Origin: Crocosphaera watsonii WH 8501
GTDB lineage: Bacteria; Cyanobacteriota; Cyanobacteriia; Cyanobacteriales; Microcystaceae
Direction: 5' to 3'
Assembly (NCBI RefSeq): GCF_000167195.1
Contig: NZ_AADV02000002.1
Span: 524,269-588,268 of the forward strand
Length of the DNA: 64,000 nt
This document shows, in pieces, positions 17,361 to 48,400 of the stretch (position 1 is the first letter of the stretch; the number at the start of each line of letters is the position of its first letter). The notes beneath the pieces were generated by a model. The model was given only the letters and a program-made list of their open reading frames with translations. It was not told the origin of the DNA and did no database searches. Made by a program: the position numbers and the translations under genes.

Positions 17361-20300
17361 TTACTCCTCTTTCAATTGCTCTTCAACCTCTTCGGGAGAA
17401 AGGCTTTGAATCTCAGCTAAGACCTCACTTATAGCTGCTAAATCTTCGCTTTCATCTTGATTTTGTTCAATAATTTCCGCAATACCGGCAATAGTTGGGG
17501 CTTCATATAACAAACTACCCATAGATAACTCTACTTGAAATGTCTCTTTCAGTCGAGAAAGTGCCTGAATAGCTAAGAGAGAATGCCCTCCCAGGTCAAA
17601 AAAGCTATCATTAACCCCAATAGGTTCAACACCGAGAATTTCTTGCCAAATATTAGCGATCGCCTCTTCCATATCGTTTCGTGGGGCAACATATTCATTG
17701 GCTAAGTTTGGTCTTTCGTATTGAGCAAGGTTTTGATTAACCTCTGTACCAGTTTCTGCTGTAGTTTTAGGGGATAATTTAACCTCAGTGCTTCCCTTCA
17801 GTCTTGCCTCAAGATCACCTTTAGAAACAATAATTTGCGAGGATAAACCAGAGGCTAAAACACGATCTATCACTGCCCTAACTTCTTCGGGAGTCAAGGC
17901 AAAAGGTACTAAACGACTGCCTAAACCCATAGCTCTCTGTTTATCTTCTTCCGATAAACAAGCATCCCAGTTAATACTAATCCAAGGGGTTTCACTAATT
18001 TGATTTTGCTGGTGTACAAAAGCATCTAGAAAACGGTTGGCTCCACTATAGGCACCCAAACCTAAACCCCCTAACACAGCCGATAAGGATGATTGTACTA
18101 AGACAAAATCTAGCTTTTTATCCTGCAAACTAGCTGCTAGGGGATAAAGTCCTTTGGCTTTGGTTTGAAAATTATACTCACTCTGCGATCGCTCTAATAA
18201 TTGAATGGGGGCAGCCGATAAGGGGCTACTCATGGGGGTTGCGTAGAATACTCCATGAACCTCTTCAACTTGCCCCATAACCTCGTTTAAGTCGCTTTCA
18301 GGGCTAAAAATTAAACAGTTTACTCCTTGTGCTTCTAATTCCTGAATCTGACGAATTTCTTGAGCAACAGATTCTTTTATTTCATTTTGTGTCAAAATAT
18401 TGACCCATTCCTCTTTTTGTGGTATTGAGTTATGAGCAACTAATAAAAGGGTTGTATCTTCCGTAGCGGCAACCTGTTGGGCGAATATTCTGCCTAAACT
18501 GTTGGTCAAGTCTCCTAAAATTAGGTAATTTCCGCCTTTTCGTAGTTTAATATTTGATTTTTTGGGTTCTTTTAAAGATATAGGTTTAAATGTTTGCTGC
18601 CAACGATAAATACCCCGATAAGCTACAATTAACTCTTTTTGAGGATCAAGAAATTCTGCTATGAGGCGATCGCCTATCTCCTGACTTCCCCTCCTGGGAG
18701 AGTCGGGGGTATCACTTGCCCCCCTTACTAAGGGGGGTTGGGGGGATCGGCTCTTGGAAGAGTAGAGTAAGTTCTCTCCTTCAATATCGATATTACGACA
18801 GCGAATTTGAGGATATTCTTGGTTAATCACCTGACATAACCCTAAAATTGGCATTTTTTCTGGTATTAAGGCTTCTTGCCCCATCAAATCATATAAACCA
18901 TTGGTTACTATAAAAATTTCTGGAGAAGAAGAAGCATAAGTTTGTGCCAACCACAATAAACTATAAAAACCTTGCTCCTGATATACTGTAAATTCTGTTT
19001 TTTCTGGGTCAATGTTCCATAAATGAACAATAAAATCGGGCATTAACTGCCTTAAACCTAAATCCTCTGCTAAAGCTTGATAATATTCCTTTTTATCTGG
19101 ATTAACGCTAAAACAACGATAGTCTGTCTCTGCAAACTCCTCCCCTGGAGTCACTGTTAACACCTCTTGTCCAGCTTTGGTTAAACTATCGGCAATATTA
19201 GCTCCAATACCTTGATTATCTAGGAAAATAAGCCAAGAAGAACCCTTTTTATCCATAGATTCCCAATCAATACCCAAAGGTGCCATATTTCGCTCCCAGG
19301 AAGGAACATAAAACCAATCCTCTAGGTCTTCATAAATAGCGATCGCATCTTCTTGGGGTTTATTAAACTGAGCATCAACCCAGTAGCGTTTACGTTCAAA
19401 GGGATAGGTAGGTAACGGGAGACGATAATGGGGTTGCTCTTCATAAAACCCAGACCAGTTGATAGGAACTCCTGCTTGCCAAAGTTTGCCCAAACTATGC
19501 AAAATAAAGGTAATATCAGACTGTTCCTCTTTAGGATGACGTAAAGAAGTTAAAATCACCTGTTCACTGTTTAAACCTAAGTTTTGTTGTGTCAAGGTAC
19601 TTAAGGTTTTACCCGGTCCAACTTCTATAAAAATGCGTTGCGGTTCCTTAGATAATTCAAAAATACCATCAGCAAAACGAACAGTTTTCCGTAGATGGGT
19701 AGACCAATAATGGGGATCAGTAGCTTCTTTTTCCGTGAGCCAACTACCTGAAACGTTAGAAATAAAGAGTTTTTGGGGAGCATTTAGGGTAATATTGCTT
19801 ATTTCTGCGCTAAACTCTTTTAATACAGGTTCCATCATCTCTGAATGGAAAGCATGGGAAGTATGAAGAAGACGACAAGCAATATTATTATTTTCGAGAT
19901 CCTTTTGTAGTTGAGCGATGGCCGTTTCCGTCCCTGACACCACACATAACTGGGGAGCATTTACCGCAGCTAAACTGAGATCAGAAGTTAAATAGGTTTG
20001 TATTTCTGCTTCTCCTAGAGCAACAGATAACATAGCTCCAGCATCGCAGTTTTGCATTAATTTACCACGAATATAAACTATTTTTAGGGCATCTTCTAAA
20101 GAAAATACACCTGCTAAAGTTGCAGCCACATATTCCCCAATACTATGGCCAAGCATAACATCAGGTTCAATACCCCAACTCATCCACAGTTTAGCCAAAG
20201 CATATTCAATGACAAATAATGCAGGTTGAGCATACATTGTAGATTGTAAATTATAAGATTTTTTAACTATTGCCTGTTGCTCTCCCCCCTTAGTAAGGGG

Positions 20301-22073
20301 GGATGGGGGGGGATCTCCTGTTTCCTTTTCAGCAAAAATAATCTCCCGTAAGTCACATCCTAAATACTCTTGAAGCAAGTCACAACAATTATCTATTTCT
20401 TGTTTAAAAACGGTTTCGGTGTCATATAGCTCTTTCCCCATCCCGACATATTGACTACCTTGGCCTGAAAATAAAAAGGTTACGGGACGATAGGAGGAAC
20501 TTGTAGAAGAATGGGTTAAAAAAGAAGATTCTAGCTGTTTTATTGCCTCTTCGTTATCCTTAGCAACAACAAAACCACGATAATCAAAATCTCTTCTTCC
20601 TACTTGCAAAGTATAAGCCACATCAGCTAAGTTAAGCTCTGGATATTGCTTTAAATGGTTAACTAAATTTTCCCTAGCCGTTTCTAAAGCTGTCGCTGTT
20701 TTAGCTGACAACAACAATAAACAACTGGTAACTGGTAACTGCTCACTGGTAACTGCTAACTGCTCACTGTTAACTACCTCTTCCAAAACAAGATGAACAT
20801 TAGTCCCTCCAATACCAAAGGAACTAACCCCGGCCCGTCGAGGTGTACCGTTACTTTGCCACTCTGATAAAGAGTCACTGATATAAAAAGGACTATTAGC
20901 AAAATCGATCTGAGGGTTTGGCTGTTTAAAATACAAACTAGGGGGAATTTGTTTATTTTTGAGAGCTAACGTAGTTTTAATTAAACTAGCTATTCCTGCG
21001 GCCGTATCTAAATGTCCAATATTAGTTTTCACAGATCCCAAAGCACAAAACCCCGTTTTATCAGTACCAACCCGAAAAGCTTGGGTTAAGGCCGAAACCT
21101 CGATGGGATCACCTAATGCAGTTCCCGTACCGTGTGCCTCAACATAAGAAATGCTCTCCGGTTCAACCTCTGCTATATGTTGCGCATCTTTAATAACCTG
21201 TGCCTGACTATCGAGGGAAGGGGCAGTATAACTTACTTTTTGCGCCCCATCATTATTAATAGCCGAGCCTTTAATAACAGCGAGAATATTATCTTTTTCC
21301 TGTAAAGCATCTTCTAAACGCTTCAAAACAACTAAACCAACCCCATTACCACTGACTGTCCCTTTGGCCTCAGCATCAAAGGCACGACAATGACCATCTG
21401 GGGAATAAATACCCCCTTCTTGGTAAAGATAGCCCACCTGTTGAGAAATAGCTACCCCTCCAGCTAAGGCCATGTCACATTCTCCACTGAGTAAACTTTG
21501 ACAAGCAAAATGAACAGCAACTAAAGAAGTAGAACAAGCGGTTTGTACATTGACGCTTGGGCCATCGAGATTTAATTTATAAGATACTCTTGTGGTTAAA
21601 AAGTCCTTATCACTGGCCAAAAATAATTGATAGGGATCTAGACTATTGTTATTTTTGGACTGACTGTAAACATTAAATAGATAACCATTCATTCCCGCGC
21701 CCCCAAATACTGCGATCGCCCCTGGATATTTTTGGGAGTCATAACCAGCATTTTCTAAAGCTGTCCAAGCACATTCTAAGAAAAGACGATGTTGGGGGTC
21801 TAATATTTCCGCTTCTCTAGCATTAAAGCCAAAAAATTCGGCATCAAATAGGTCTACGTCTTCTAGTTTAGCTGCTGACTTCACATAATTAGGCTTTTTC
21901 AATAATGCTTCATCAATGCCCCGTTTTAGTAACTCTTCCTCACTGTAAACGGTAATTGATTCTTTTCCTTGAGACAAATTATCCCAAAATGCGTCAACGG
22001 TATCAGCCCCAGGAAACCGTCCTGCCATGCCGATAATTGCAATTTCTAAACCATTATTGAGTGAATCAGTCAT
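17361..22073 (-). CDS. type I PKS module KS-AT-KR-ACP
   Basis: The 1570-residue protein has the domains KS (about 10-430; VQTACSTSLVAV with the active Cys, EAHGTGT and [12 protein letters not shown] with the two His), AT (about 530-840; [14 protein letters not shown], the malonyl-type signature), KR (about 1175-1375) and ACP (about 1480-1550; DLGGHSLL with the pantetheine Ser). The KR keeps Ser and Tyr (QSSLSAV, AYSGAN), but its nucleotide-binding motif reads LGDLTNSLG in place of TGGxGxxG and may be weak or inactive. The KS resembles the clade that follows NRPS modules (FFGFNAREAEILDPQHR), and the gene is 14 bp downstream of the NRPS gene, so it probably extends an aminoacyl chain. The protein ends in an acidic tail with no thioesterase. 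Repeat insertions lie at the KS-AT linker, the AT loop and before the KR. Confidence 0.92.
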   Translation of the reverse strand: MTDSLNNGLEIAIIGMAGRFPGADTVDAFWDNLSQGKESITVYSEEELLKRGIDEALLKKPNYVKSAAKLEDVDLFDAEFFGFNAREAEILDPQHRLFLECAWTALENAGYDSQKYPGAIAVFGGAGMNGYLFNVYSQSKNNNSLDPYQLFLASDKDFLTTRVSYKLNLDGPSVNVQTACSTSLVAVHFACQSLLSGECDMALAGGVAISQQVGYLYQEGGIYSPDGHCRAFDAEAKGTVSGNGVGLVVLKRLEDALQEKDNILAVIKGSAINNDGAQKVSYTAPSLDSQAQVIKDAQHIAEVEPESISYVEAHGTGTALGDPIEVSALTQAFRVGTDKTGFCALGSVKTNIGHLDTAAGIASLIKTTLALKNKQIPPSLYFKQPNPQIDFANSPFYISDSLSEWQSNGTPRRAGVSSFGIGGTNVHLVLEEVVNSEQLAVTSEQLPVTSCLLLLSAKTATALETARENLVNHLKQYPELNLADVAYTLQVGRRDFDYRGFVVAKDNEEAIKQLESSFLTHSSTSSSYRPVTFLFSGQGSQYVGMGKELYDTETVFKQEIDNCCDLLQEYLGCDLREIIFAEKETGDPPPSPLTKGGEQQAIVKKSYNLQSTMYAQPALFVIEYALAKLWMSWGIEPDVMLGHSIGEYVAATLAGVFSLEDALKIVYIRGKLMQNCDAGAMLSVALGEAEIQTYLTSDLSLAAVNAPQLCVVSGTETAIAQLQKDLENNNIACRLLHTSHAFHSEMMEPVLKEFSAEISNITLNAPQKLFISNVSGSWLTEKEATDPHYWSTHLRKTVRFADGIFELSKEPQRIFIEVGPGKTLSTLTQQNLGLNSEQVILTSLRHPKEEQSDITFILHSLGKLWQAGVPINWSGFYEEQPHYRLPLPTYPFERKRYWVDAQFNKPQEDAIAIYEDLEDWFYVPSWERNMAPLGIDWESMDKKGSSWLIFLDNQGIGANIADSLTKAGQEVLTVTPGEEFAETDYRCFSVNPDKKEYYQALAEDLGLRQLMPDFIVHLWNIDPEKTEFTVYQEQGFYSLLWLAQTYASSSPEIFIVTNGLYDLMGQEALIPEKMPILGLCQVINQEYPQIRCRNIDIEGENLLYSSKSRSPQPPLVRGASDTPDSPRRGSQEIGDRLIAEFLDPQKELIVAYRGIYRWQQTFKPISLKEPKKSNIKLRKGGNYLILGDLTNSLGRIFAQQVAATEDTTLLLVAHNSIPQKEEWVNILTQNEIKESVAQEIRQIQELEAQGVNCLIFSPESDLNEVMGQVEEVHGVFYATPMSSPLSAAPIQLLERSQSEYNFQTKAKGLYPLAASLQDKKLDFVLVQSSLSAVLGGLGLGAYSGANRFLDAFVHQQNQISETPWISINWDACLSEEDKQRAMGLGSRLVPFALTPEEVRAVIDRVLASGLSSQIIVSKGDLEARLKGSTEVKLSPKTTAETGTEVNQNLAQYERPNLANEYVAPRNDMEEAIANIWQEILGVEPIGVNDSFFDLGGHSLLAIQALSRLKETFQVELSMGSLLYEAPTIAGIAEIIEQNQDESEDLAAISEVLAEIQSLSPEEVEEQLKEE
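18686..18750. repeat. G/C-block repeat (family R3) in PKS, before the KR
   Basis: A dispersed cyanobacterial repeat with the core CCCCCCTTACTAAGGGGGG followed by TTGGGGGGATC, in frame (RSPQPPLVRG). A companion segment TTCCCCTCCTGGGAGAG precedes it, as in the copies at 26637 and 35886. Confidence 0.8.
20282..20325. repeat. R3 repeat in AT loop (leftward PKS)
   Basis: The same CCCCCCTTAGTAAGGGGGG core, in frame as PPPSPLTKGG, fills the loop between EIIF and YNLQST of the AT domain. Confidence 0.8.
20721..20775. repeat. family R5 repeat (GTTAACTGCTCACT type) in KS-AT linker
   Basis: Alternating ACTGGTAACTG / CTCACTG units encode SEQLAVTSEQLPVT in frame. The homologous linker of the PKS at 45404 carries a shorter version (46771-46803). 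Confidence 0.75.
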
Positions 22074-22087: not shown

Positions 22088-25000
22088 TTAGGATTTTTTA
22101 TTTTTCTGACGACGTTGTTGTAAGCGTTTTTTCCCTGCTGTTAGGCGTTCATTTCTGGACTCTGATGGTTCAACAACAGGCTGTTTTGACTTCTGACGTT
22201 CAAAATAGGTTGATAATTCACTAATTGTTGGATATTGAAACATTTCCACTAGAGAAATATCAGATGAAAAGGCTTCTCTTACTTTACTGTGTACTCTCAC
22301 CATAGACAAAGAGTGACCACCCAGTTCAAAGAACGGATCATTAATTCCTATTGTCTCAACTTTTAGAACTTCTTGCCAAATTGTAGCAATAGTTCTTTCT
22401 ATTTCGGTACGGGGACTAACATAAGTTTCTGTTAACTGTTGTCTATCTTTTGGCTCTGGTAAAGCGTTACGATCAATTTTCCCATTAGGAGTTAATGGTA
22501 AACTTTCTAACTCCACAAACCGAGAGGGAATCATGTAATTAGGTAATTTTTCCCCTAAAAACTCCCTTATTGGTGGGGTTTGGGGGGACGGGGAGAGGGG
22601 GGGACGGGGAGAGGGGGGGACGGGGAGAGGGGGGGACGGGGAGAGGGGGTGATCGGGAGTGTGAGCATCTTGCTCACTAACCTCTGTAGGGATACTTTGG
22701 GGGGACGGGGGGACGGGGTGATCGGGAGTTTGGGGAGAGACTATATAAGCTATTAAACTTTGTTCTTTGACAATAACAACTGCTTCTTTTATTTGGGGAT
22801 GGGTTAATAATATTGTTTCTATTTCTCCTAATTCTAGACGAAAACCTCGCAATTTTACTTGATAGTCTATTCTTCCTAAATATTCTATCTCTCCATCTTC
22901 TCCATACCTCACTAAGTCTCCTGTTTTATATAATCTTTCTCCCCTCTTAGTAAGGGGGGTTGGGGGGATCGCAATAAACCTTTCTGCTGTTAACTCTGGG
23001 CGGTTTAAATATCCTCTAGCAACCCCCATTCCTCCAATATATAACTCTCCTGGAACTCCTATAGGAACTTGATTATAGTCTTTATCTAAAATATAAAATT
23101 GTGTATTATCAATAGGTTTTCCTAGCCTTACTTTATCTGAATTTACCTCATAAACCGATGACCAAATAGTGGTTTCAGTGGGTCCATATAAGTTCCAAAC
23201 TTGTTGAGATTTTTCTTGTAACTGTTGAGCTAAAGTAATATCTAATGCTTCCCCACCGCAGAAAATAGTTAAGTCTTTTTTTCCTTTCCAACCCGAAGCA
23301 AGCAATAGTTTCCAGGTTGCAGGAGTTCCTTGCATTACTGTAACTTGATGGGTTTCTAACTGTTGCGCAAGAGTAACACCCTCAACAGCAATATTTCGAG
23401 AAACTAATATTAATTTAGCACCAACTATCAAAGGTAAATATAGTTCCAAAGCAGCAATATCAAAGGAAAGAGTAGTAACAGATAATAAGGTATCATTATC
23501 TGTTAAACCTGGCTTTTTACTCATAGATATTAAGAAATTACTTAAAGCACGGTGAGGTATTTGTACACCTTTAGGAATACCCGTTGAACCCGATGTATAA
23601 ATAACATAAGCTAGATTTTCTCGATTGATTTTTAGATCAAGATTTGTATCTTTTTCTTGACTTATTTTTGATTGTATTTTACTTATATCTATAAACCAGT
23701 TTACAACCTGTTCCCTGTTCCCTATTCCCTGTTCCCTGTTCCCTATTAAATAATTAATTCCTGAATTTTCAACCATAAAATTAAGACGTTGTTCAGGATA
23801 ATTAGTATCTAAAGGTAAATAGGCTCCACCTACTTTAAGAATAGCTAATAAACTAATTACCATTTCTAAAGATGGTTCTAAACAAATACCAACTAAAGTT
23901 TCAGGTTTAACCCCTAATTTTTGTAAATAATGAGCTAGTTGGTTAGCTTTTTTATTAAGTTGTTCATAAGTTAAAGATTCATCATCAAAAATCACAGCAG
24001 TATTATTAGGTGTTTTCTCAACTTGTCGTTCAAATAATTGATGAATTCTAAGATCATTATTTCCTTTTATTTCTTCTCTATTGCCTTCTATTAATAATTG
24101 TTTTTTCTCAGAGTTGGTTAATAAAGACACTTCCCACAACTGTTGCTCAGGGTTAAGAGAAATGTTAGTTAATAAAGTTTCTAAATGTCCTAATAAACGG
24201 TTAATACTAGACGAAGAAAAGCGATCACTGTCATATAAAAGTCTTAAAGTTAATTCTGGGGTTATAGCAGCATAAAGTGTCAAAGGGTAATTAGTTTGTT
24301 CTGTTGTTTGAATATTATTAATTTCCAAACCTTGTAAAGACTGTTTTAGAGTTGGTTCAATAGGATAATTTTCAAAAATAACTAAACTTTCAAACAAGGG
24401 TAAATCTCCAGGAACATCACTATGACGTTGAATTTCGAGGAGAGGTGTATATTCATATTGTTGTTGTTCAATTTGTTGATTTTGTAATTTTTTGAGCCAA
24501 TAAATTAGAGATTGTTGGGGTTTAATTTTGACTCGTACAGGTAAGGTATTAATAAATAAACCAACCATTGATTCTGCATTGATAAGAGCAGGTGGACGAC
24601 CGGAAACCGTTGCCCCAAAAACCATATCTGACTCCCCACTATAGCGACTCAGTAATAAGGAAAATGACCCTTGGATGAATGTATTTAGGGTAAGTTGTTG
24701 TTGTTTGGCTAATTTTTGTAATTTAGAGGTAAGTTCTGGGGATAGTTTTCTCTCTTGCTCATTGTATCGAGGAGAAGCTTTACGAAAGCTTTCCTTTGAG
24801 TTACCAATACCCAAAGGAGTTGGGGAAATAAAACCTTTGAGGGTGTTTTGCCAATAGTTTTCCGCCTCTAAGCTATCTCTTTTTTGTAGCCAAGCGATAT
24901 AGTCCCGATAAGGGGTAGGTGTCCCGATATTTATGGTTTTTCCTAAAGATAATGCTTGATAATAAGTCAAAAATTCTTTAAAAATAGAGCTAACTGACCA

Positions 25001-25447
25001 ACCATCCAACAAAAGATGATGATATAACCAAATAACTTGATAATGCTCCTCTGCTAATTTAATCAATATTACTCTCATTAACGGAGCAGAAGACAGGTTT
25101 AAACCTTGTTGTCGTTGCCTTTGTAATAACTCAGTTAATTTTTCCGATTGTTGAGTAAGAGGAATAGTTGTCCAGTCTAGTTGTTCAACAGGTATATTTA
25201 CTCGTCTTCCCACCACTTGTAGGGGTTTTTCTAAGTTTTCCCAGACAAATGCCGTGCGAAAAATGGAATGACGCTCGCCTAACTTTTGCCAAACTTTCTC
25301 AAAAACGACAGAGCTTAATGAACCAGTGATCTCATAGGTTATTTGGACAAGATAAGCCCCAGACTCAGGGGATAATAGGCTATGAAACAACATTCCCTGC
25401 TGCATGGGGGATAAGGGGTAAATAGCTTCAACAGTTTTAGCGTTCAT
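22088..25447 (-). CDS. NRPS module C-A-PCP
   Basis: The 1119-residue protein has a condensation domain (about 5-440; IYPLSPMQQGMLFHSL; HHLLLDGWS with the HHxxxDG motif intact), an adenylation domain (about 475-990; YTSGSTGIPKGV, LYGPTETT, YKTGDLVRY, LRGFRLELGEIE, NGKIDRNALP) and a carrier domain (about 1010-1080; [10 protein letters not shown]). Reading the ten-residue code by eye gives D-I-L-T-F-G-L-I-W-K, close to glycine-type codes (DILQLGLIW), so a small residue is likely. Three repeat insertions sit in the A domain. A basic tail follows the carrier. AAGGAATA precedes the ATG. No epimerase, methyltransferase or thioesterase is present. It is the first gene of the leftward operon. Confidence 0.92.
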   Translation of the reverse strand: MNAKTVEAIYPLSPMQQGMLFHSLLSPESGAYLVQITYEITGSLSSVVFEKVWQKLGERHSIFRTAFVWENLEKPLQVVGRRVNIPVEQLDWTTIPLTQQSEKLTELLQRQRQQGLNLSSAPLMRVILIKLAEEHYQVIWLYHHLLLDGWSVSSIFKEFLTYYQALSLGKTINIGTPTPYRDYIAWLQKRDSLEAENYWQNTLKGFISPTPLGIGNSKESFRKASPRYNEQERKLSPELTSKLQKLAKQQQLTLNTFIQGSFSLLLSRYSGESDMVFGATVSGRPPALINAESMVGLFINTLPVRVKIKPQQSLIYWLKKLQNQQIEQQQYEYTPLLEIQRHSDVPGDLPLFESLVIFENYPIEPTLKQSLQGLEINNIQTTEQTNYPLTLYAAITPELTLRLLYDSDRFSSSSINRLLGHLETLLTNISLNPEQQLWEVSLLTNSEKKQLLIEGNREEIKGNNDLRIHQLFERQVEKTPNNTAVIFDDESLTYEQLNKKANQLAHYLQKLGVKPETLVGICLEPSLEMVISLLAILKVGGAYLPLDTNYPEQRLNFMVENSGINYLIGNREQGIGNREQVVNWFIDISKIQSKISQEKDTNLDLKINRENLAYVIYTSGSTGIPKGVQIPHRALSNFLISMSKKPGLTDNDTLLSVTTLSFDIAALELYLPLIVGAKLILVSRNIAVEGVTLAQQLETHQVTVMQGTPATWKLLLASGWKGKKDLTIFCGGEALDITLAQQLQEKSQQVWNLYGPTETTIWSSVYEVNSDKVRLGKPIDNTQFYILDKDYNQVPIGVPGELYIGGMGVARGYLNRPELTAERFIAIPPTPLTKRGERLYKTGDLVRYGEDGEIEYLGRIDYQVKLRGFRLELGEIETILLTHPQIKEAVVIVKEQSLIAYIVSPQTPDHPVPPSPQSIPTEVSEQDAHTPDHPLSPSPPLPVPPSPRPPLSPSPQTPPIREFLGEKLPNYMIPSRFVELESLPLTPNGKIDRNALPEPKDRQQLTETYVSPRTEIERTIATIWQEVLKVETIGINDPFFELGGHSLSMVRVHSKVREAFSSDISLVEMFQYPTISELSTYFERQKSKQPVVEPSESRNERLTAGKKRLQQRRQKNKKS
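22575..22735. repeat. G-rich minisatellite (family R2) in the NRPS A domain
   Basis: Units of GGGGACGGGGAGAGG are repeated many times. They encode a proline/serine-rich insertion (VPPSP, LSPSP) between the A-domain core VSPQ and the EFLGEKLPNYM motif, in frame. Confidence 0.85.
22938..22972. repeat. R3 repeat in the NRPS A domain
   Basis: The CCCCTCTTAGTAAGGGGGG core with TTGGGGGGATCG encodes IPPTPLTKRGE just before the YKTGDLV motif, in frame. Confidence 0.8.
23707..23747. repeat. family R4 repeat (GTTCCCTATTCCCT) in the NRPS A domain
   Basis: A 7-bp unit TTCCCTG/A is repeated. It encodes GNREQGIGNREQ in frame between NYLI and VVNW of the A domain. Confidence 0.8.
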
Positions 25448-25599
25448 TATTCCTTGTCAGTTAGGTATATTAACAATTTGAGAAAAATCTCCTCAAGTTA
25501 ATTTTAATTAAGTTAAGATTAATAACGTAGGGTTGTTTTCAACCTTAACTTTAACTTGTGCAATTTTTACACAATCCCTCTAACCTGATCGTTATACGA
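25448..25599. promoter_or_regulatory. divergent promoter region of the PKS/NRPS operons
   Basis: The spacer between the two divergent operons contains a palindrome GGTTGTTTTCAACC (25531-25544) bounded by GTTAAG and CTTAAC-type half sites, a reasonable place for a shared operator. The region is otherwise AT-rich. No -35/-10 pair is clear enough to name. Confidence 0.4.
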
Positions 25600-28500
25600 A
25601 TGTTCCCAACCGACTCAACAGTTGTCAACCTCTTACAACACAGAGCAAGCAACCACGCACAAAAACTCAGTTATACCTTTTTAACCAGTGGAGAAACCGA
25701 GGAAATAGCACTAAGTTATTCAAACTTGGAATCTCAAGCCAAAACCATCGCGGCACAGTTACAAAACTTAAATATGCAGGGGGAGCGAGCCTTACTCCTA
25801 TATCCTTCTGGACTCGAGTTTATAGCAGCCTTTTTCGGATGTCTATACGCAGGAGTTGTGGCGGTGCCTGTTTATCCTCCCCAGGGAAAGCAGCCTTTAT
25901 CTAGACTGGAAGCGATCGCTAAAAATGCTCAAGCTAAAATTATACTGACAACCAGTAACTATAAAGCCGAAATTAAACAATATTTTTCACAAATAAGTAA
26001 ATTTGACGATTTAACCTATTTAACTACCGATAATCTAGATAGTAGTCTAGGTTTTGACTGGAAAAAACCCAATATTAACAGTAATACCCTGGCCTTTCTT
26101 CAATATACATCTGGTTCGACGGGAAACCCCAAAGGAGTGATGGTAAGTCATGGAAACTTACTAAAAAATTCCGCTAATATTTATCAAGCATTTAATCACA
26201 ACAGCGATAGTCACGGGGTTATCTGGTTGCCACCCTATCATGATATGGGATTAATAGGAGGCATTATACAACCTCTCTATGGGGGTTTCCCAGTAACTTT
26301 AATGTCCCCGAGTAGTTTTATCAGAAAACCCATCCGCTGGTTAAAGGCTATTTCCCGTTATCAAGCTACCACAAGCGGGGGACCGAATTTTGCTTATCAA
26401 CGGTGTTTAGAAACCATTACCCCCCAACAAAAAGCTGAACTAGACTTGAGTAGTTGGCAAGTGGCTTTTACTGGGGCTGAGGCCATCGCTACTCAAACCT
26501 TAGAAGAGTTTGCCGAAGCATTTGCCTGTTGTGGGTTTCAAAGAGAAGCCTTTTATCCTTGTTATGGCTTAGCTGAAGCTACTTTATTTGTCACAGGTAA
26601 GGTAATGGAGGCAGAAGGAACCGAAAGGCAGGAGATGATCCCCCCAACCCCCCTTACCAAGGGGGGCAAGCTACCCACCCAAACCTTCCAGGAGGGTAAT
26701 GTGGGAGTTTTGGAGAGGTTGTCTCCCATATCTCTACAGGAAACTTGTGAGTTAAGAGAGCCTAAAATTATTAAAGTTGATAGTAAGGAACTACAAAAAA
26801 ATAAAGTAGTTCTCACAAGTGAAGAAACAATTAAAACTCAAAAAATTGTTAGTTGTGGTCGACCTGCCATAGACGAAAATATTATTATTGTTGACCCTGA
26901 AACTGCCTTACCCTGTCCCCCTGAAACAGTGGGAGAAATCTGGGTTTCCGGGGCCAGTATAGCTCAGGGTTATTGGCAAGATGAAGACGCAACAGAGAAG
27001 GCGTTTAATGCTTATTTACCTGATAATAAAAAACCATTTTTACGAACAGGAGACTTAGGTTTTCTACACCAAGGGGAATTATTTGTTACAGGTAGGATAA
27101 AAGATATTATTATTATTCGTGGTCGGAATTATTATCCCCAAGATATAGAAAATACTGTAAAAAACTGTCATCCGGCCTTACGTGATCATAGTTGTGTAGC
27201 CACCAGCATAACCTCTGAAGAAGGGGAAAAATTAGTAATTATTGGGGAGATTAAACGCAAGCTTGAACAAAAAATTAATTTTCAAGAAATTGTTAACACA
27301 ATTCGTTCTCATGTTTCTCGAAAACATGGCATTCAAACCAATAAAATAGTTTTGGTAAAACAAGGTAGTATTCCCAAAACATCAAGCGGTAAAATTCAAC
27401 GCCTAGCTGGTAAAAAAGCTTATTTAGAAAACAATATATCTATAATTTTTCAGGAAGATAGTTCTGAAAAAAATACAAAAGAATCTCAAGAAAAGACAAT
27501 GAGTCATTCCATAGAGTTGAATAAAACGCAAAAGAGAAAAGATAAAAAATTGTCCGAACTAATCTCATGGTTAAGAAACTACGCCAACGAAAATATTAAT
27601 TCTCGTTTAATAGATGAACGTCGTTGTATTCCCCCTCATATTGTGCTTGATTTTGGCAATCAAGGACTACTAGGAATGCAGGTTCCCCTGGAATACGGAG
27701 GCTTAGGGCTAAATAATGGGGAAACCATGAATGTGATGGAGCAATTAGGAGCAATTGACACAACATTGTCCCTATTTGTCGGCTTAAACAACGTTTTAGG
27801 AATTCGTCCCCTACTAAATTTTGGTAGTCCCTCCTTAAGAGAAGAACTATTACCCAGGTTAGCCACAGGAAGAGAACTAGCAGCCTTTGCCTTAACCGAA
27901 CCCAGTGCCGGATCAAACCCTCAGGCCATCGCCTCTTCTGCCATTCCCCAGTCCCCAGAACAATGGATAATAAACGGGACTAAAATATGGAGTGGTTCGG
28001 CGGCTTGGGCTGGAATCATTAACGTTTTTGTGCAGGAAAAAGACTCACAAGGAAATTTTCAAGGAATAAGCGGTTTTACGGTTAAAAGAGGAACTCCAGG
28101 ACTAAAACAAGGCCCCGAAGCTTTAACTATGGGAATGCGAGGAATGGTACAAAATACCGTTTATTTCAATGATGTTGCTGTTGATGCCTCCCAAAAACTG
28201 GGAAATACAGGGGAAGGCATGAAAGTAGCTCAATATGCCATGATGTATGGAAGGTTAACCATCGCTGCGGCCAGTGTAGGTGGGATGAAACGTTGCGCTC
28301 AGTTATGGCACCGTTATAGTTCCCGTCGTCAAATTTCTACGGGGCGTTTATTAGAAAATCCTTTGGTTTTAGCCCGTTTAAATGGATTAACCGCAGCTAT
28401 TACCACTATAGAGACCCTAGTTACCAGTATTACTACATGGTTAGACCAAGGGCAAGAGGTTCCTGTTGAAGCTTATGCTGTGTGTAAAATGGCCGCCCCC

Positions 28501-37529: not shown

Positions 37530-39156
37530 TGGCAGAAAATAAAGATTATGCAGCCCTAATGCAGAATGCTTTAAAAGAACTGCGACAAATGCGGGCTAAA
37601 CTCAAACAGTTAGAAGAAAGTAAAAGTGAACCCCTAGCCATTATTGGTATGGGTTGCCGTTTTCCTGGCGCCGATAACCCCACTCAGTTCTGGCAGTTAT
37701 TAAAACAGGGAAAAGATGCCATTACTTCTGTGCCTTCAGATCGCTGGAATGTCGATGAATACTACGATAGCGATCCCAAAACCGTCGGCAAAATATGTAC
37801 CCGTTATGGGGGGTTTATTGGACAGTTACAGGAGTTCGATCCAGAATTTTTTGGCATTTCTCCCAGGGAAGCTATTAGTATAGATCCCCAACAACGTCTA
37901 TTATTAGAAGTCAGTTGGGAAGCATTAGAAAATTCTGGTATTATCCCGAAAAACCTGGCAGGTACTCAAACAGGGGTGTTTATAGGCATAAGTAGTAATG
38001 ATTATTCCCAGCAGTTGTTAACCCGTGAAGTGGATGATATCGATGCTTACTTAGCTACAGGAAACTCTCATAGTGTAGCCGCCGGACGACTTTCTTTTTT
38101 ATTGGGTTTAACAGGCCCTAGTTTAGCCGTTGATACCGCTTGTTCATCTTCCCTAGTAGCAATACACCTCGCTTGTCAAAGCTTACGTAACCTGGAATGT
38201 AAAACAGCTATAGTAGGAGGAGTTAATCGCTTAATTTCCCCCGAATTTAGCATTAATTTCTCACAAGCGCAAATGTTAGCCCCCGATGGTCGTTGTAAGA
38301 CCTTCGATGGCAGTGCAGATGGTTTTGTCAGATCCGAAGGTTGTGGGGTAGTTGTCTTAAAACGTCTCGAACAAGCTTTAGAAGATGGGGATAATATCTT
38401 AGCCGTCATTCGGGGTTCTGCGGTTAACCAAGATGGACGTAGTAGCGGTTTAACAGTGCCTAATGGTCCCTCTCAACAAACCGTGATCCGTCAAGCATTA
38501 GAAAACAGCAAGGTTGATGCTTCTGACATAAGTTATATTGAAGCACACGGCACAGGAACATCTCTCGGCGATCCCATTGAAATAGGGGCGTTAGGGGCTA
38601 TTTTCAGCAAAACCCATTCCCCACAGCAACCCTTAATAGTGGGTTCGGTGAAAACCAATATTGGTCATTTAGAAGCGGCCGCAGGTATTGCCGGGTTAAT
38701 TAAAGTTATCTTATCTTTGCAACATGAAGAAATACCCTCACATCTACATTTTCAAAACCCTAGTCCCCATATCAACTGGAATGAGTTGCCTATTACTGTT
38801 CCTAGTCAAGCTACACCCTGGAAACGTAGTGAAAACAAAAGGTTAGCCGGGTTAAGTTCTTTTGGGTTTGGTGGTACAAACGCTCATGTTATTTTAGGGG
38901 AAGCGTCGCCAAAGGTTGTTGAAACCCCAAAAGTTGACCGTCCCTTACATTTATTAACCCTATCAGCTAAGACAGAAACGGCTTTAAAAGCACAAATAGA
39001 ACAATATAGAACCTATTTAAACAATCATCAAAATCTTTCTTTTGCTGATATTTGTTACAGTGCAAATAAGGGGCGATCGCCTTTTGATTACCGTTTTAGT
39101 ATTGTAGCTGGTTCCACAACAGAAGCATTAGAAAAAATAGATAATACCCTATCGCC

Positions 39157-39279
39157 AAATAACCCGTCTTTGTCAAGGAAAGGTTGGGAGGGATCTTCTC
39201 CCAATAGCCCCCCTTTGGGAAAAGGAGGATCTTCTACAAATAGCCCCCCCTTAGTAAGGGGGGGTTGGGGGGGATCTTC
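39157..39279. repeat. three R3-type copies in KS-AT linker, second methylating PKS
   Basis: Three CCCCCCTT...AAGGGG cores in a row, in frame (NPSLSRKGWEGSS, SPPLGKGG, SPPLVRGGWGGSS). Confidence 0.83.
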
Positions 39280-39455
39280 TCCGGCCATTGCCTTTCTATT
39301 CACTGGACAAGGTTCGCAATATGTAGGAATGGGACAACAACTATATCAAACTCAACCCACTTTTAAAGCAACAGTTGATCATTGTTCTGATCTTCTTCAA
39401 GTTTATTTAGGATGGGATATTAAAGAGGTTATTTTTGGTAAAGAGGAAATAGACT

Positions 39456-39507
39456 ATCCCCCCCAACCTCCCCTTAGTAAGGGGGGAGGGCAACAGGGAA
39501 CAGGAGA
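39456..39507. repeat. R3 repeat in AT loop, second methylating PKS
   Basis: The core CCTCCCCTTAGTAAGGGGGG encodes PPQPPLSKGGG at the loop between EVIF and YNLDST, the same site as repeats in the other three AT domains. Confidence 0.83.
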
Positions 39508-42500
39508 AAATTCTTATAATCTAGATTCAACCATTAATACTCAACCTGCTTTATTTGTCATAGAATATGCTTTAGCAAAACTGTGGCTATCTTGGGGTAT
39601 TAAACCTGATATGATGATGGGTCATAGTATTGGGGAATATGTAGCAGCAACTTTAGCTGGTGTATTTAGTTTAGAAGATGCTTTAAAACTGATTACTGCT
39701 AGGGGAAGGTTAATACAGGAACTTCCTGAAAATGGCTCAATGGTTGTTGTTTTTGCTCCTTTAGAAACAGTAGAAAAAGCAGTTGCTTCTTATCAAGATA
39801 AAGTTTCCATTGCTGCTATAAATCATCATCAAAACATAGTTATTTCTGGTGAAGGCGAAGCTATACAAGAGATTATTGAGCAACTAGAATTAAACGGTAT
39901 TCAAAACCAAACATTAAAAGTTTCTCACCCTTTCCATTCTCCCATGATGGAACCCATGTTAAAAGCATTTGAAACTATTGCCAAACAGATAAAATATTCA
40001 TCCCCTAAAATTAAAATAGTTTCCACTGTAACAGGAACGGTTATAACTGAGGAAATAGCCACACCCGAATACTGGTGTCATCAGATCAGAGAAACAGTAA
40101 GATTTTCACAAGCAATAGAATGTTTAATAGATAAAGATATTAAAATATTCCTCGAAATAGGAGCAAAACCAACTTTATTAAATATGGGAAAAACAGTTGT
40201 TGAAAATAGTAATAAAGCACAGAATATTTGCTGGTTAGCTAGTTTACATCCAAAGCAGGAAAATTGGCGAACAATGTTATTGACTTTGGGAGAATTATAT
40301 GCTAAGAAATATGTTATTGATTGGGAGGAATTTGACAAAGATTATCCTAGAAACTATCTTAATAATTTACCAACCTATCCTTTTCAACGAGAAAAATATT
40401 GGTTTACATCATCATCAACAAAACCCAACAAAAATAAGCAAATAAAAGGACATCCTTTGCTCGGTAATCAATTAATTTTAGCAAAATCTGATACTATTTT
40501 ATTTGAGAGTGAAATTAGTCAAGATGAACCTAATTTTTTACAAGATCATCGTGTCTTTGATAAGGTTATTCTTCCAGGTGCAGGATTTTTAGAAATGGCA
40601 CTAAGCGCAGGAATTAAAGCTTTAAACACTCAAGCTATTATCCTAGAAAGTGTTGCTATTCAAAAGCCTTTGATATTGCAAGAGGATAGTGAGAAAAAAA
40701 TCCAAACATTTTTAACACCAAAAGAAGATGAGAATACATATATATATGAAATATTTAGTCAAGAAGAGTCTAACTGGAAACTTCATGCAAAAGGACAATT
40801 TTTGTCAACTGAGAATAAGATAATAAAAGCTAACTTGAACGATATAAAAGAAGAATGTAATATCCTAGTAGATACGGTGGAATATTATCAAAAACTAGCT
40901 CAAAGAGGTGTTCATCTTGATACTAACTTTCAAGCTATAAAAAAACTGTGGAAAAATAAATCAGAAGAATCATTAGCAGAGATATCTTTACCAGAAAAAA
41001 TACTTTCTCAAACTAACCCTTATACCATTCATCCTGTCTTGTTAGACGCTTGTTTTCAGGGGATAGGTATTACCTTATTAGAAGAAGATCAAAATATAAC
41101 TTATCTTCCTATTGGTTTAGATAAATTTACTCTTTATGAAAACACTTCCCATACTCATTTATGGAGTCATGTTAAACTACGATCCCGTAAGTCTTCTATA
41201 CAACATACTTTAATTGCAGATGTTGAAATTATAGAACCTCAAGGAACTATTATTGCTACTGTTGAAGGGATACAACTTAGCCCTGTTAGTCCCGAAACTT
41301 TGTTTGCTAGTTCACAGAATACTTACACAGACTGGCTTTATGGGATAGAGTGGCGACAAAAACAAATTTTCACAGCATCCTCTGAACACTTTCTCACCCC
41401 CCAGAAAATTAGCGATCGCCTGACTCCTCGTTTCACAGAATTAGTAAATAAGACTGAAATAACTTATTATCAGCAATTATTGCCAAAATTAGACCATTTA
41501 AGCCTAAATATATTATCCAAGCATTTCAGGGCATGGGCTGGAAGTTTACCGAAAATCAAAGCTTATCAAAACAGTCTCTAACCATTGCGAAAAAATATCA
41601 GAGATTAACAGATTATCTCCTTAAAAATCTCACAGAAGCAGGAATTTTAAACAAAATAGACGATCATTGGCAAGTAATTAAAACGTCAAACTCTGCAACC
41701 ATTGAAAGGCAAAAACAAGAGTTATTAAAAGAATATCCCTTTGCCGAAATAGAATTAACATTACTCCATCGTTGCGCTTCTCAACTAGCACAAGTTTTAC
41801 AAGGAAAATGCGATCCAGTGCAGCTACTATTTCCCCAAGGAGACTTAAGCACCGCTACCCAGTTGTATCAAGACTCTCCTGGGGCGAAGATGATGAATAC
41901 TTTAGTACAAGAAACCCTTAGTGTTGCCCTGGAAACATTACCTCAAGGTAAAAAAGTTCGTATTTTAGAAATAGGAGCCGGAACCGGAGTAACAACGGCT
42001 TATTTATTACCTTATCTCGATTCAGCACAGACAGAATACTGTTTTAGTGATATATCGCCTATTTTTAGTGAAAAAGCGAAACAAAAATTTTCTGATTATT
42101 CCTTTATTAGTTACCAAACCTTAGATATTGAACAAGATCCTCAAAAACAAGGATTTTCAGCAGAATCTTACGATATTATCGTTGCTGCTAACGTTTTACA
42201 CGCTACAGAAAACCTAGAAGAAACTATAAACCATGTTCATCAGTTATTAGCCCCGAAAGGGATGTTATTGTTGCTAGAAAATACCAGTGCTTTGCTGTGG
42301 TTGGATCTGATCTTTGGGTTAACAGAGGGATGGTGGAGGTTTAATGATGAAGTAAGGAATGATTATCCCTTGATATCTGCCCAAAAATGGCAAAAATTAT
42401 TAATTGACAGAGAATTTGAACATACAGCTATTCTGAAACCAGAACAAAAGCAAGGGGAAACAGTCTCACAACAAAGCATTATTTTAGGACAGAAAAAAGC

Positions 42501-44081
42501 TTCTGCTCCGAAAAATTGGTTAATATTAGGAGATAAAGATGTTTTTGCCGAGAATTTAGTTAATTATTTACAAGAAAAAGGACAATATGCCATACTTAGT
42601 CAAGAAATAGATAATTTAGATGAATTTCAACACATTATCTATCTAGGAAGTTTAGACAGTCCCGAACCCTCTAACCTAACTACCCAAGACTTAGAAACAG
42701 CTTCTGAAATAGGCTGTACTAACGTTTTAACCCTTGTCCAAACCTTAGCAAACTCATCTACACCCCCCACACTGTCAATAGTAACCAGGGGTGCAGTATC
42801 CACAGAAACAGAGGATATTTTACCAGGGTTAACAGAAGCTTCATTATGGGGAATAGGAAAAGTTATTAATTTAGAGCATACTCAATTAAACTGTAGATGT
42901 ATTGATCTTGATACTAAAATTGCTCCAGAAAAACAAATTCAAGCCCTATTAAGCGTCATTGAGTCAACAGAAAAAGAAACGCAAGTTGCTTTAAGAGATG
43001 ATCAACTTCAGGTATCAAGGTTAGTACGTCATGGAAAAATTGAGCCATATAAACTAGAAATTCCTCAGAATGAAGCCTTTAAGTTAGATATTTCACAAAA
43101 AGGGACTCTCAGCAACTTAGAGCTTGTTCCAACGTCACGTATATCTCCTGAGCAGGGTGAAGTAGAGATTAAAGTAGGAGCAACCGGACTCAACTTCATC
43201 GACGTTTTAGACGGGTTAGGGTTACTACCATTTGAGAGAGAATGGTTTGGGGTTGAATGTGTCGGGGAAGTGGTGAGGGTTGGAGAAGGAGTCAATGAAC
43301 TAAAAAAAGGCGATCGCGTTTTAGCGTTAGCCCCAGGTAGTTTTAGTCAGTATGTCACCATAACCACCCAGTTAGTTAGCCATTGCCCCAAAAACTTAAC
43401 CATTGAAGAAGCAGCGACTATTCCAGCCAACTTTTTAACCGCTTACTATGCCTTACATCGTCTAGGGAAAATTAAAAAAGGCGATCGCATCCTCATTCAT
43501 TCAGCAGCCGGGGGAACAGGGATGGCCGCCCTACAAATAGCTCAACAAGTAGGAGCAGAAGTATTTGCCACAGCTAGTCCCAATAAATGGGAGTTTCTCA
43601 AGTCTTTGGGGGTGAAAAACGTGATGAACTCTCGAACATTAGACTTTGCAGCAGAAATTTTGACTATTACCGAAGGGAAAGGGGTTGATGTGGTGTTTAA
43701 CTCCCTCTCAGGAGAGTTTATTACAAAAAGCTTCTCTGTATTAGCTGATGAAGGGCGTTTTCTAGAAATAGGTAAACGAGATATTTGGACAAGGGAACAA
43801 GTTCATAAAGTTAAACCCAATGCCTCTTACTTTGCCATAGACTTACTTACTATTGCGCAACAGCAACCGCAACTTATTCAGTCGATGCTTACTGAGTTAA
43901 AACAAAAGTTTGAGGAAGATCGCTTAAAACCCTTACCTCGTAACGTCTTTCCCATAGAGCAAACTATTCAAGCTTTCCGTTATATGCAGAAAGGAAAGCA
44001 TATTGGCAAAATAGTTGTTTCTTATAACCCAGAATTAAAAAATATTAGTAGTTCTGAGCAATTAAACAACATATCTGTAGG

Positions 44082-44099
44082 GGCGAACGGCCGTTCGCC
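44082..44099. repeat. perfect 18-bp palindrome (family R6) between ER and KR
   Basis: GGCGAACGGCCGTTCGCC, a dispersed cyanobacterial palindrome, is in frame (GANGRSP) in the ER-KR linker of the second methylating PKS. Confidence 0.85.
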
Positions 44100-44363
44100 T
44101 ATACAAAAAATGCCTTTAGGTTTTTCTGAAGATGGAACCTATCTTATTACTGGAGGGTTAGGAGGTTTAGGTTTATTAGTAGCTCGCTGGATGATAGAAA
44201 AAGGAGCCAAAAATTTAGTATTGATGGCAAGAAGTAAAGCCAACTCCCAGCAAAAACAAGAAATACAAGCCTTAGAAGCTTTAGGAGGCAATATTACCGT
44301 TGCTCAAGGAGATGTCTCCAACAAAGAACAACTAGCAAACATCTTAGAAAACATCCAAACCAC

Positions 44364-44444
44364 CACCCCCGTCCCCCCCTCTCCCCAACCTCCCCTCTCC
44401 CCGTCCCCCCCTCTCCCCGTCCCCCCCTCTCCCCAACCTCCCCT
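44364..44444. repeat. R2 C-rich minisatellite inside the KR, second methylating PKS
   Basis: CCCCGTCCCCCCCTCT units encode VPPSPQPPLSPSPPLPVPP at exactly the KR site used in the first methylating PKS. Confidence 0.88.
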
Positions 44445-45403
44445 AAAGGGTATCATCCACGCTGCCGGAGTATTAGACGACGGAGTATTACTACAAATGA
44501 ACTGGGAACGGTTTAATAAGGTAATGGCTCCCAAAGTACAAGGAGCTTGGAACCTTCATAACTTAACCAGAGATAAACCTTTAGACTTCTTTATCCTTTT
44601 CTCATCAGCCGCTTCCTTATTAGGTTCTCCCGGACAAGGAAACCACGTTGCGGCGAATACATTTCTTGATAGCTTAGCTCATTATCGGCGATCGCAGGGA
44701 CTACCGGCCTTGAGTATTAACTGGGGTGTGTGGTCAGATATTGGGGCAGCAGCCAAACGCCAAGTAGACGCACAGATGAAAGCCCGAGGTATTGGGGCGA
44801 TCGCTCCCCAACAAGGGTTAGATATCTTAGAAAAACTATTTACAGAAGAATCTACTCAAGTAGGGGTTGTTCCCATTAACTGGCCACAGTTTTTGTCTTC
44901 TGGGGCAACATCTCCCTACTTTGAAGACTTTGCCCAAACTAAGGAAACTAAACAAAGAGAAGCATCAGAGTTACGCCAACAATTAACCGATATTCTGCCA
45001 CAAAATCGTCTTTCTTTCCTCGTTAACCACTTACAAGAGGAAGTTGCTCCCATTCTTGGACTGAAAACTAACCCCAACCCCCAACAAGGCTTTTTTGACC
45101 TGGGAATGGACTCTTTAATGGCAGTGGAAATGAAAAACCGTTTAGAAACAGGTTTAAGCGTAACCCTTCCCTCAACGGTTATTTTTGAATATCCCACCAT
45201 TAACGCCTTAGCTGAATATTTAGTTGAGGAAATGTTTCCTTCTCAGTGGGAGTCAACAGGTGTTAAGACCAAAATAAACAACGAAGAAACTTCCCTTTCT
45301 CAAACCTTAGAAGAAGATATAAATGCTTCTCAAACCCTAGAGGAAGATAGTGCCATCGCCCAAGAATTAGAAGAATTAGAAAATTTATTAAAAAACAGAA
45401 ACA

Positions 45404-48400
45404 ATGACTGAATCATCAACCTCACAACGTATCCTAGCAGCCCTTAAAGAAGCTCGCAACGAACTCCAAGCCGTGGAACTGGCTCAAAATGAACCCATCG
45501 CCATAGTTGGTATGGCAGGAAGGTTTCCAGGGGCAAAAAATTTGGACGAATTTTGGCAAAATATCTGTAATGGGGTTAATTCTATCGATTTTCTCTCTCA
45601 ATATGAGTTATTAGCCCATGGAGTTGACCCCGAAACCGTTAATGACCCCAACTATGTCAACGCCTATTCCAGTTTTGAGGGAATAGATAGCTTTGATGCG
45701 CCCTTTTTTGGCTATTCTCCTAGAGAAGCAGAAGTTATTGACCCCCAACATCGTGTGTTCCTGGAATGCGCCTGGGAAGCCCTAGAAAATGCAGGTTATG
45801 ACCCCGAACGTTATGGGGGTGCGATCGGAGTATTTGGGGGCGCAGCACTCAATAGTTATCTGGTTAACTTGTATGGCAATAGTAACCTGAGACAGTCTCT
45901 AAATAAAACTCAGGTGGTGATCAGTAATGTCATGGGGTTAATGCCCACCAGGGTTTCCTATAAACTGAACCTAAAAGGGCCTAGTTGTGGGGTGCAAACA
46001 GGTTGTTCTACGTCCCTTGTCTCTGTTCATTTAGCCTGTCAAAGTTTACGAAGCCAAGAATGTGATATGGCCTTAGCTGGAGGGGTAACTATTGGTACAA
46101 TGGGAAAATCAGGCTATCTTTACCAAGAAGATAGTATTGCTTCCCCCGACGGCTTTTGTCGTGCTTTTGATGCCAAGGGGCAAGGGACTGTGTTTGGTAA
46201 TGGGGTGGGTATTGTAGTTTTGAAACGGTTATCTGTTGCCCTAGAAGCAGGAGATCATATTTATGCCCTTATTAAAGGTTCTGCTATCAATAACGATGGT
46301 TCGCAAAAAGTGGGACTAACTGCCCCTAGTGTTATAGGACAAGCAGAAGTTATCGAAAAAGCTCTTCAAAAAGCTAGAGTTGAACCAGAAACGGTTAATT
46401 ATATCGAAACTCACGGCACAGGAACTCCTCTGGGTGATCCTATTGAAATGTCTGCTTTAACTAAGGTGTTTCGAGACAGTAAACAACAAGAAAAGTTTTG
46501 TGCGATCGCTTCTGTGAAAACTAATATCGGTCATTTAGATGCAGCAGCAGGTATTGCAGGTTTAATTAAAACTGTTTTAGCCCTAAAAAATCAGAAAATA
46601 CCCCCTAGTCTTAATTTTAGACAGCCTAACCCCCAAATTGATTGGGATAATAATCCTTTTTATGTTAATACTCAACTAAAAGACTGGCAACGAAATGGCA
46701 ACCCCCGTCGTGCTGGTGTTAGTTCCTTTGGTATGGGTGGAACTAATGCTCATGTTGTTTTAGAAGAGGCAGGGAGCAGTGAACAGTTAACTGTTAGCAG
46801 TTGTTTATTATTGTTGTCGGCTAAAACATCAACAGCTTTAGAAACCATAACTAAAAATTTAGCGGATCATTTAAAACAGCATCCAGATATTAACTTAGCT
46901 GATGCGGCCTATACTTTACAAATAGGTCGTCAAAGCATGGAATATCGTCATTTTGTCCTTTGTCAGGAAACAGAAGAAGCGATCGCCTCCTTAAAATCAG
47001 ACCCTCAACCTATTCCTTTATTATCTTCTCCTAAAATAACCTTTCTATTTTCAGGACAAGGCAGTCAATATGTAGGGATGGGGAAAGAACTATACGACAC
47101 TGAACCGGTTTTTAAACAAGAAGTAGATCGCTGCTGTGACTTGCTTCAAGAGCATTTAGAGTGTGACTTACGGGAGATTATTTTTGGACAAGGAGACGGG
47201 GAGACGAGGAGACAAGGAGACGGGGAGACGGGGAGACGGGGAGACGGGGAGACGGGGAGACTTGGAGAAAATTTACAATCTACAATATATGCTCAACCTG
47301 CATTATTTGTCATTGAATATGCTTTGACTCAACTGTGGATGTCTTGGGGTATCCAACCCAATGCTATGCTTGGTCACAGTATTGGGGAATATGTGGCAGC
47401 AACAATAGCAGGTGTCTTTTCTTTGCAAGATGCTCTCTATCTAGTGGCAATGCGAGGAAAACTGATGCAGGAATGTCCTCCTGGGGCAATGCTTTCTGTT
47501 TCTTTATCAGAAGAAAAGTTGAGCAGTTTATTAACAGAAGATTTAGTTATTTCCGCTATTAACGCCCCAAACTTATCTGTGGTATCAGGAACCATAGAAG
47601 CGATCGCAATATTAGAAAAACGTTTAACTAGCAAAAATATTGCCTGTCGTTCTCTCCATACTTCTCACGCCTTCCATTCTCCTTTGATGCAGCCTATTAC
47701 TGGCAAGTTTAAGGACATAATACGGCAAATTTCTCTAAATTATCCTAAATTACCCTTTATTTCCAATTTAACAGGTACTTGGATAACTCCAGAGCAAGCT
47801 ACTGATCCTGACTATTGGATACAACACCTTCTCCAACCTGTTCGTTTTCATGATGGCATCAAGGAACTATTGGAAACAAGCGATCGCCTTTTCTTGGAAA
47901 TAGGGCCAGGACGAACTTTAAGCACTTTAAGCAAACAACAGCAAGCAGATATCCCTGTTTTCACCTCCCTACGTCATCCCCAAGAAACCATCTCAGATCA
48001 ATCATTTATCCTTAATACAGTGGGTAAACTATGGCAAACTGGCGTAGAAATAGACTGGTTAGCCTTTTATCCCCATGAAAAACCCTCTCGCATTCCCTTA
48101 CCTACTTATCCCTTTGAACGTCAACGTTATTGGGTGGATATATCTCCATCAGAACCAGTTACCCAAACAGAGGAAACCTCTCTAATAAAAAACCCCGATA
48201 TGGCTGACTGGTTTTATGTTCCTGCTTGGAAACGAATACCATTACCAAAAAATAGTAAAATAGAGTCTCAAAATTGCTTAATATTAACAGATGAAAGTGA
48301 ACTTTCTAATGCTTTAATTAGTAGTCTTCAAAAATCTAATCAAAATATTGTTACTGTAAGCATTGGAGACGAATTCACACAGATTGCTGAAAAACAATAT

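Follow-up and report, generated by a model that had tools for sequence, protein, structure and literature searches.

The megasynthases of a hybrid polyketide synthase/nonribosomal peptide synthetase (PKS/NRPS) cluster of the cyanobacterium Crocosphaera watsonii WH 8501 carry small repeats of unrelated families at one and the same position, a loop of the acyltransferase (AT) domain. We regard it as very probable that this is a surface loop with little constraint on its length, where selection spares in-frame and stop-free insertions of small repeats, which are then layered and grow in tandem. The stretch of DNA analysed, called the window in the following, comprises 64,000 nucleotides (NZ_AADV02000002.1, 524,269-588,268; coordinates given below without a prefix are positions within it) of a 6.24-Mb draft genome in 323 contigs. 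The cluster occupies about 34 kb of the window. Four of its open reading frames (ORFs) were matched by PF00698 (Acyl_transf_1) with 187-210 bits, compared to a gathering cut-off of 32.7, and the catalytic GHSxGE motif reads GHSIGE in all four AT domains. The source genome contains two further PF00698 matches. The AT domains belong to modules that we named A (17361-22073, minus strand; KS-AT-KR-ACP), D (29610-37529, plus; KS-AT-DH-MT-ER-KR-ACP), E (37529-41581, plus; KS-AT-DH), and G (45404-50029, plus; KS-AT-KR-ACP).

The loop was located exactly in each of these domains as the segment between IIF/VIF and NL(D/Q)ST. It is 22-28 residues long in all four, and every insert is in frame, as an earlier note on this DNA had stated. 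The loop of module A (20253-20333, minus strand; AEKETGDPPPSPLTKGGEQQAIVKKSY) contains the palindrome R3, here gatccccccaaccCCCCTTAnnAAGGGGGG, with R4-like sequence on both sides, and that of module D (31485-31550, plus; SEQGTGNGEQETGRLGDGETCY) the heptamer repeat R4 followed by the octamer repeat R1. R3 also occupies the loop of module E (39437-39517, plus; GKEEIDYPPQPPLSKGGGQQGTGENSY), where an R4-like piece follows it, and the loop of module G (47186-47269, plus) is an R1 octamer array of about nine units encoding 28 residues. The residues SY preceding NL(D/Q)ST are present in the A and E loops and absent from the G loop. The order R3, R4+R1, R3, and R1 proposed in the note was thereby confirmed, except that module E has the additional R4-like piece. 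The note had also spoken of different families in all four domains; repeat DNA is indeed present in each, but R3 fills two of them. The span from GQG to GHS measures 100-106 residues in the window's AT domains compared to a median of 85 in 106 relatives from the same taxonomic family, only six of which reach at least 97 residues.

All three families are dispersed in the source genome, with copies on many contigs. Exact matches numbered 21 for R1 (GGAGACGGGGAGAC), 8 of them within the D and G loops, and 20 for R4 (GGGAACAGGGAACAG). For R3 (CCCCTTANNAAGGRGG) we counted 76 matches on each strand, some sites being counted on both. The reversed patterns of R1, R3, and R4, used as a control, did not match anywhere in the 6.24 Mb. 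If one mismatch at most was allowed, R1 was found 20 times in the window, compared to a mean of 0.00 in 100 shuffles.

The G and E domains were modelled with AlphaFold from 39-row alignments, with a mean predicted local distance difference test score (pLDDT) of 92.3 and 89.5, respectively. Values below 50 were confined to the insert (residues 63-73 and 75-80 in G, 60-80 in E). In both models a short helix ending at IIF/VIF (52-56 in G, 50-54 in E) precedes the insert; the EIIF/EVIF segment had earlier been taken for a strand. The next helix after the loop covers residues 80-88 of the G model and 87-107 of the E model. The best solved structural matches of the modelled domains are PKS AT domains. 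ZmaA (4qbu), CurL (4mz0), and ClbI (8xju) share the fold and rank among the best structural and sequence matches, but 17-18 residues of the window's AT loop are missing from the alignments with ClbI and ZmaA. The loop is probably exposed on the surface of the domain.

We then compared AT domains from relatives. AT matches at E 1e-40 or better were present in 34 of 50 genomes of the same family and yielded 110 distinct domains, including the window's four; at the level of the order, 165 of 291 genomes had an AT match at E 1e-70 or better, and 28 new loci (L209-L236), the best matches of 28 genomes and hence not a random draw, were added. A strict detector, which accepts only 7- or 8-base tandem repeats or a perfect palindrome with 10-base arms, found 15 tracts in these 138 domains (110 from the family, 28 from the order). 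Thirteen of the 15 lie in this loop, where 0.9 would be expected from its 6% of the bases (binomial p = 1.7e-14, ignoring the relatedness of the sequences). They are distributed over 3 of the 4 window domains, 5 of the 106 family relatives, and 5 of the 28 order domains. The detector undercounts, because it missed both the E loop and the PPLA loops described below. Insertion lengths in the 110 family domains show the same concentration: of those with at least 5 residues, 20 map to this site, compared to 16 in a C-terminal loop and 1-4 at each of five further positions, and of the 23 insertions of at least 10 residues, 13 are at this site, including the window's four. With labels set by hand, the loop is filled by a repeat in 13 of the 106 family relatives. 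A filled loop is therefore the minority state, and four of four within one cluster is unusual.

The relatives fill the loop with repeats of their own. Three 14-residue copies of the PPLAPPYQGG type occupy a loop in genome G011, CCAAAAT heptamers are found in the loops of two AT domains of G022, and the loops of G021 hold CCAATCA heptamers, CCCCTACT octamers, and the GACGCGATATATCGCGTC palindrome. Among the order loops with a strict tract, palindromes occur in L211 and L216, CACCCCTA octamers in L217, CCAATCC heptamers in L224, and AAAATCC-like repeats in L215; by eye, L236 contains an R4-like tract and L210 a short palindrome. Of the five families from G011, G021, and G022, three are clearly dispersed in their own genomes: three consecutive CCAAAAT units have 61 matches in G022, CCAATCA (CCCCAATCACCAATC) has 15 in G021, 2 of them in the loop, as well as 10 in G022, and the GACGCGAT palindrome (AGACGCGATNNATCGCGTCT) has 72 per strand in G021. 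In G000, CCAAAAT, CCAATCA, CCCCTACT, and the GACGCGAT palindrome have no match and the PPLA palindrome has one.

The loop content also differs between close relatives. On a tree of the 110 AT domains, computed by a quick method with the loop masked (40 of 107 branches starred), parsimony requires the repeat family to change at least 15 times and the presence of a repeat 10 times. Two domains that are 92% identical outside the loop carry CCCCTACT and CCAAAAT, respectively (L009 and L062); another pair (L056 and L061, 91% identical) differs by the presence of a repeat, and a third (L008 and L055, 88%) by loop content. Within the cluster, the D and E domains are 76% identical and hold R4+R1 and R3 plus R4-like sequence. 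The sister pairs were compared between species only, with one genome per species. Together with the 13 loop tracts, the changes on the tree uphold the central statement of the earlier note, namely, that unrelated repeat DNA has been taken up again and again at a single structural position.

The placement of the repeats relative to genes differs between the window and the rest of the genome. In the window, all R3 elements (9/9), seven-base tracts (3/3), and eight-base tracts (4/4) lie inside megasynthase ORFs, whereas in 1.2 Mb of the same genome beyond the window, 30 of 37 R3 elements, 54 of 60 seven-base tracts, and all 14 eight-base tracts are located outside ORFs (Fisher tests, pooled 8e-13; ORFs of at least 100 residues were called mechanically, the stretches compared are not random, and the coding fraction is somewhat higher in the window, 0.89 vs. 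0.74-0.80). Because of this contrast, we consider the cluster unusual for holding these repeats in coding DNA. The remaining 7 R3 elements in the 1.2 Mb lie within ORFs, and a single gene harbours 3 of the 7. The gene richest in repeats outside the cluster within this sample (L202:3724-6093, minus strand) encodes a 789-aa protein with a TPR match and has three R3-like inserts and a 7-base tract. We also considered a stop-codon filter as a full account of which families enter genes, and found little support for it: the 7- and 8-mer tracts of the window are open in 3-6 frames (7/7), but so are many intergenic ones, and 8 of 33 intergenic background 7-mers lack any open frame.

We propose the following scenario. 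The AT loop would be an excursion on the surface of the fold with little constraint on its length or sequence. Small repeats, that is, 7-8-bp tandem arrays and short palindromes, would insert or arise throughout cyanobacterial genomes, and in megasynthase genes selection would purge those that break the frame, add a stop, or hit a folded part. Because selection removes the rest, the survivors would gather in a few tolerant loops and linkers, this AT loop probably being among the strongest of these sites. A resident repeat could then grow in tandem and take up others, as may have happened with R1 after R4 in module D and with R3 beside R4-like sequence in A and E. We infer that the inserts are neutral, and likewise how the repeats move and in which order they were layered. 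Of the two mechanisms offered in the earlier note, a tolerated loop explains nearly everything; the other, exchange of cassettes between paralogues, is a less likely possibility for the two R3 loops.

Several observations weigh against this scenario. The loop lacks a repeat in 93 of the 106 family relatives. The counts were made over related sequences, the repeat labels of the 17 filled AT domains were set by hand, and the tree is a quick one. Dispersal is weak for two of the five families from relatives. The 3 matches of CCCCTACT in G021 include 2 that overlap within the loop itself, and of the 8 matches of the PPLA palindrome in G011, two AT loops account for 5; this palindrome has no match in G015, though one G015 loop carried the PPLA label. 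In one G011 domain (L016), the first of the three PPLAPPYQGG copies replaces the SLINILY of relatives, and therefore not every insert keeps to the loop. Judging from this sequence, the short helix before the loop may have been lost through that copy. Finally, tolerance alone leaves unexplained why this loop exceeds other surface loops, and a bias of insertion could contribute.

The R3 loops of A and E raise the question of how two modules came to share a repeat. The loop-masked tree places A beside G (support 90) and E beside D (support 100), and the two pairs are far apart. G and D are without R3, and inheritance of the insert from a common ancestor of A and E was rejected as the straightforward reading on these grounds, leaving conversion or double capture. 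The first of these would mean that repeat cassettes were swapped between paralogous modules by short-tract gene conversion and that the two R3 loops have one origin. It agrees with the site patterns in the loop block (codon columns 630-659), where the A=E|D=G pattern occurs five times and A=G|D=E once, against the domain tree and opposite to the neighbouring blocks, which favour A=G|D=E by 19:1 and 9:0. The A and E loops also agree in 11 of 11 codons (4.5 expected), and their junction GGGGAGNGCAACAGG has exact matches in the whole genome only in these two loops. But the informative sites number just six, R3 is alike in every copy, and the immediate flanks of the two loops do not show an A/E tract. 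Moreover, one of the two places matching the junction with one mismatch (C322:679696), about 100 kb from the cluster, holds a similar composite of R4-like, R3-like, and R4-like sequence. One composite could therefore have been captured twice, and this would look identical to exchange. The four cross pairs show an excess of synonymous identity in the part following the loop (z 2.3-3.3) and also at the KS end (z 2.4-3.9), but it may be explained by constraint or older recombination, and hence we do not count it as proof of conversion. The main KS part and the C-terminal part of the AT domain are free of such an excess between module clades. On balance, we consider gene conversion between the modules rather unlikely.

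The scenario of tolerance and selection also has to be weighed against an insertion bias, in which the loop DNA would be a preferred target and the hotspot would reflect insertion more than selection. Repeats do adjoin repeats (R3 and R4-like sequence in modules A and E, R4 and the following R1 in module D), and far fewer of them are found at other positions of the AT domain. However, families of differing form (7-mers, 8-mers, palindromes) have entered loops with different flanking DNA, and the insertion point varies, being about 10 residues upstream of the others in L048. Beyond the cluster, most repeats lie between ORFs, which matches the prediction of a selection filter. We therefore regard a dominant insertion bias as improbable. 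Recruitment of the inserts for a function, such as a flexible contact with the ACP or a neighbouring module, would fit their in-frame persistence in all four modules. But the same place is taken by unrelated peptides, either charged (GDGETGRR) or proline rich (PPLTKGG), close sisters differ or are without an insert, and the model confidence is low, which makes such a role very unlikely. An assembly error is extremely unlikely even for a 323-contig draft with arrays that are hard to assemble, since each of the four inserts preserves the reading frame and this loop also contains repeats in the assemblies of other genomes.

The same repeat families are found at further places in these enzymes, and the claim that they occur at this loop only was rejected. 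In the linkers between KS and AT, a 7-bp repeat (NSEQLAVTSEQLPVTSC) is located at the linker start of module A (20721-20771, minus strand), two R3 copies in module D (31242-31322, plus), R3 copies in module E (39161-39274, plus), and a stretch that resembles, by eye only, the repeat of module A at the linker start of module G (46775-46804, plus). R1-type repeats on the opposite strand occupy the KR loops of module D (36549-36623, plus) and ORF F (44362-44442, plus). Since the two sites coincide by eye, the KR loops are another example of paralogues filled at one position. Further R1-type arrays are found in the ER-KR linker of module D (36222-36299, plus), in the ACAD-ACP linker of the ORF at 25558-29613 (29083-29178, plus), and, on the opposite strand, in the C-terminal A-subdomain of the NRPS (22571-22726, minus). 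R4 occurs in module D in the segment preceding the methyltransferase (33723-33761, plus) and ahead of the YTSGSTG motif in the A domain of the NRPS (23708-23740, minus), and R3 in the ER domain of module D (35886-35981, plus), in the FAAL (AMP-binding) domain (26638-26685, plus), and in module A in the segment that precedes the KR (18684-18746, minus). Some of these sites recur in relatives: repeats are present at the KS-AT linker start in L037, L039, and L040 and in the A domain before YTSGTTG in L037, L038, and L041. The AT domain itself has a second repeat site, a C-terminal loop near residues 281-298, which contains the other two of the 15 tracts from the strict detector, one a GAGTTCC array and one a perfect palindrome (L071 and L212).

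These sites invite the speculation that cyanobacterial megasynthases have a small set of standing capture sites for repeats (AT loop, KS-AT linker, KR loop, A-domain loop), at which matching repeats could act as homology handles for recombination between modules and so shape polyketide diversity, the R3 loop of A and E being one trace of it. We think it quite improbable that all of this holds.

The other genes of the cluster are an NRPS (22088-25447, minus strand; C-A-PCP), a FAAL-ACAD-ACP ORF, the FAAL name being assigned in this analysis (25558-29613, plus), ORF F, also named by us (41533-45411, plus; MT-ER-KR-ACP), and a luciferase-like monooxygenase (50090-51127). The cluster is flanked by direct repeats about 40 kb apart (14564-15882 and 54599-55917, both on the minus strand). 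Each copy is a two-ORF sequence (213 and 193 aa), and 1433 of 1600 positions are alike in an ungapped comparison; by eye only, the repeats are transposase-like.

A filled AT loop indicates where repeat DNA can land in a large enzyme while the gene stays unbroken. It can thus be viewed as a natural insertion scan of the AT fold, and it points to a position at which PKS modules might accept added tags or linkers. In addition, it offers a system for measuring the interplay of small repeats and selection inside genes. An empty and a filled site compared across strains would directly test how the repeats move.

Small dispersed repeats and short tandem repeats of the same size class are known from cyanobacteria, mainly from intergenic and RNA-gene settings, whereas the repeats described here lie within megasynthase domains. 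A literature search of partial coverage found neither a report of unrelated repeat families repeatedly filling one enzyme loop nor a strain comparison of these AT loops. The closest parallel is provided by the Rickettsia palindromic elements (RPEs), small palindromic repeats fused in frame within conserved protein genes; one RPE-containing product that was tested is reported to have kept its activity (PMC2229807, PMC6649704). The AT loop inserts likewise are in-frame fusions within conserved protein genes. RPEs measure 105-146 bp, and stop-rich elements reportedly stay outside genes (PMC2229807). Here, in contrast, the elements are tandem arrays with 7-8-bp units and palindromes that extend over some tens of bases. 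By eye, the R3 copies of the window are of this latter size, and R1 and R4 are tandem arrays, which places none of the three in the RPE class. REP palindromes of the GTAG/CGTC superfamilies are dispersed in genomes, including those of cyanobacteria, and sometimes intragenic, and the part of that report available to us does not single out any protein position for them (PMC3733652). The palindrome of L211 does start with GTAG and end with CTAC, but by eye the R3 copies (gatccccccaacc...TTAnnAAGGGGGG) are without such a terminal tag, as are the tandem arrays. Repeat elements in coding DNA are thus already known. What appears to be new, within the literature covered, is that several unrelated repeat families have entered one loop of one domain family, the AT loop, in members of an entire order.

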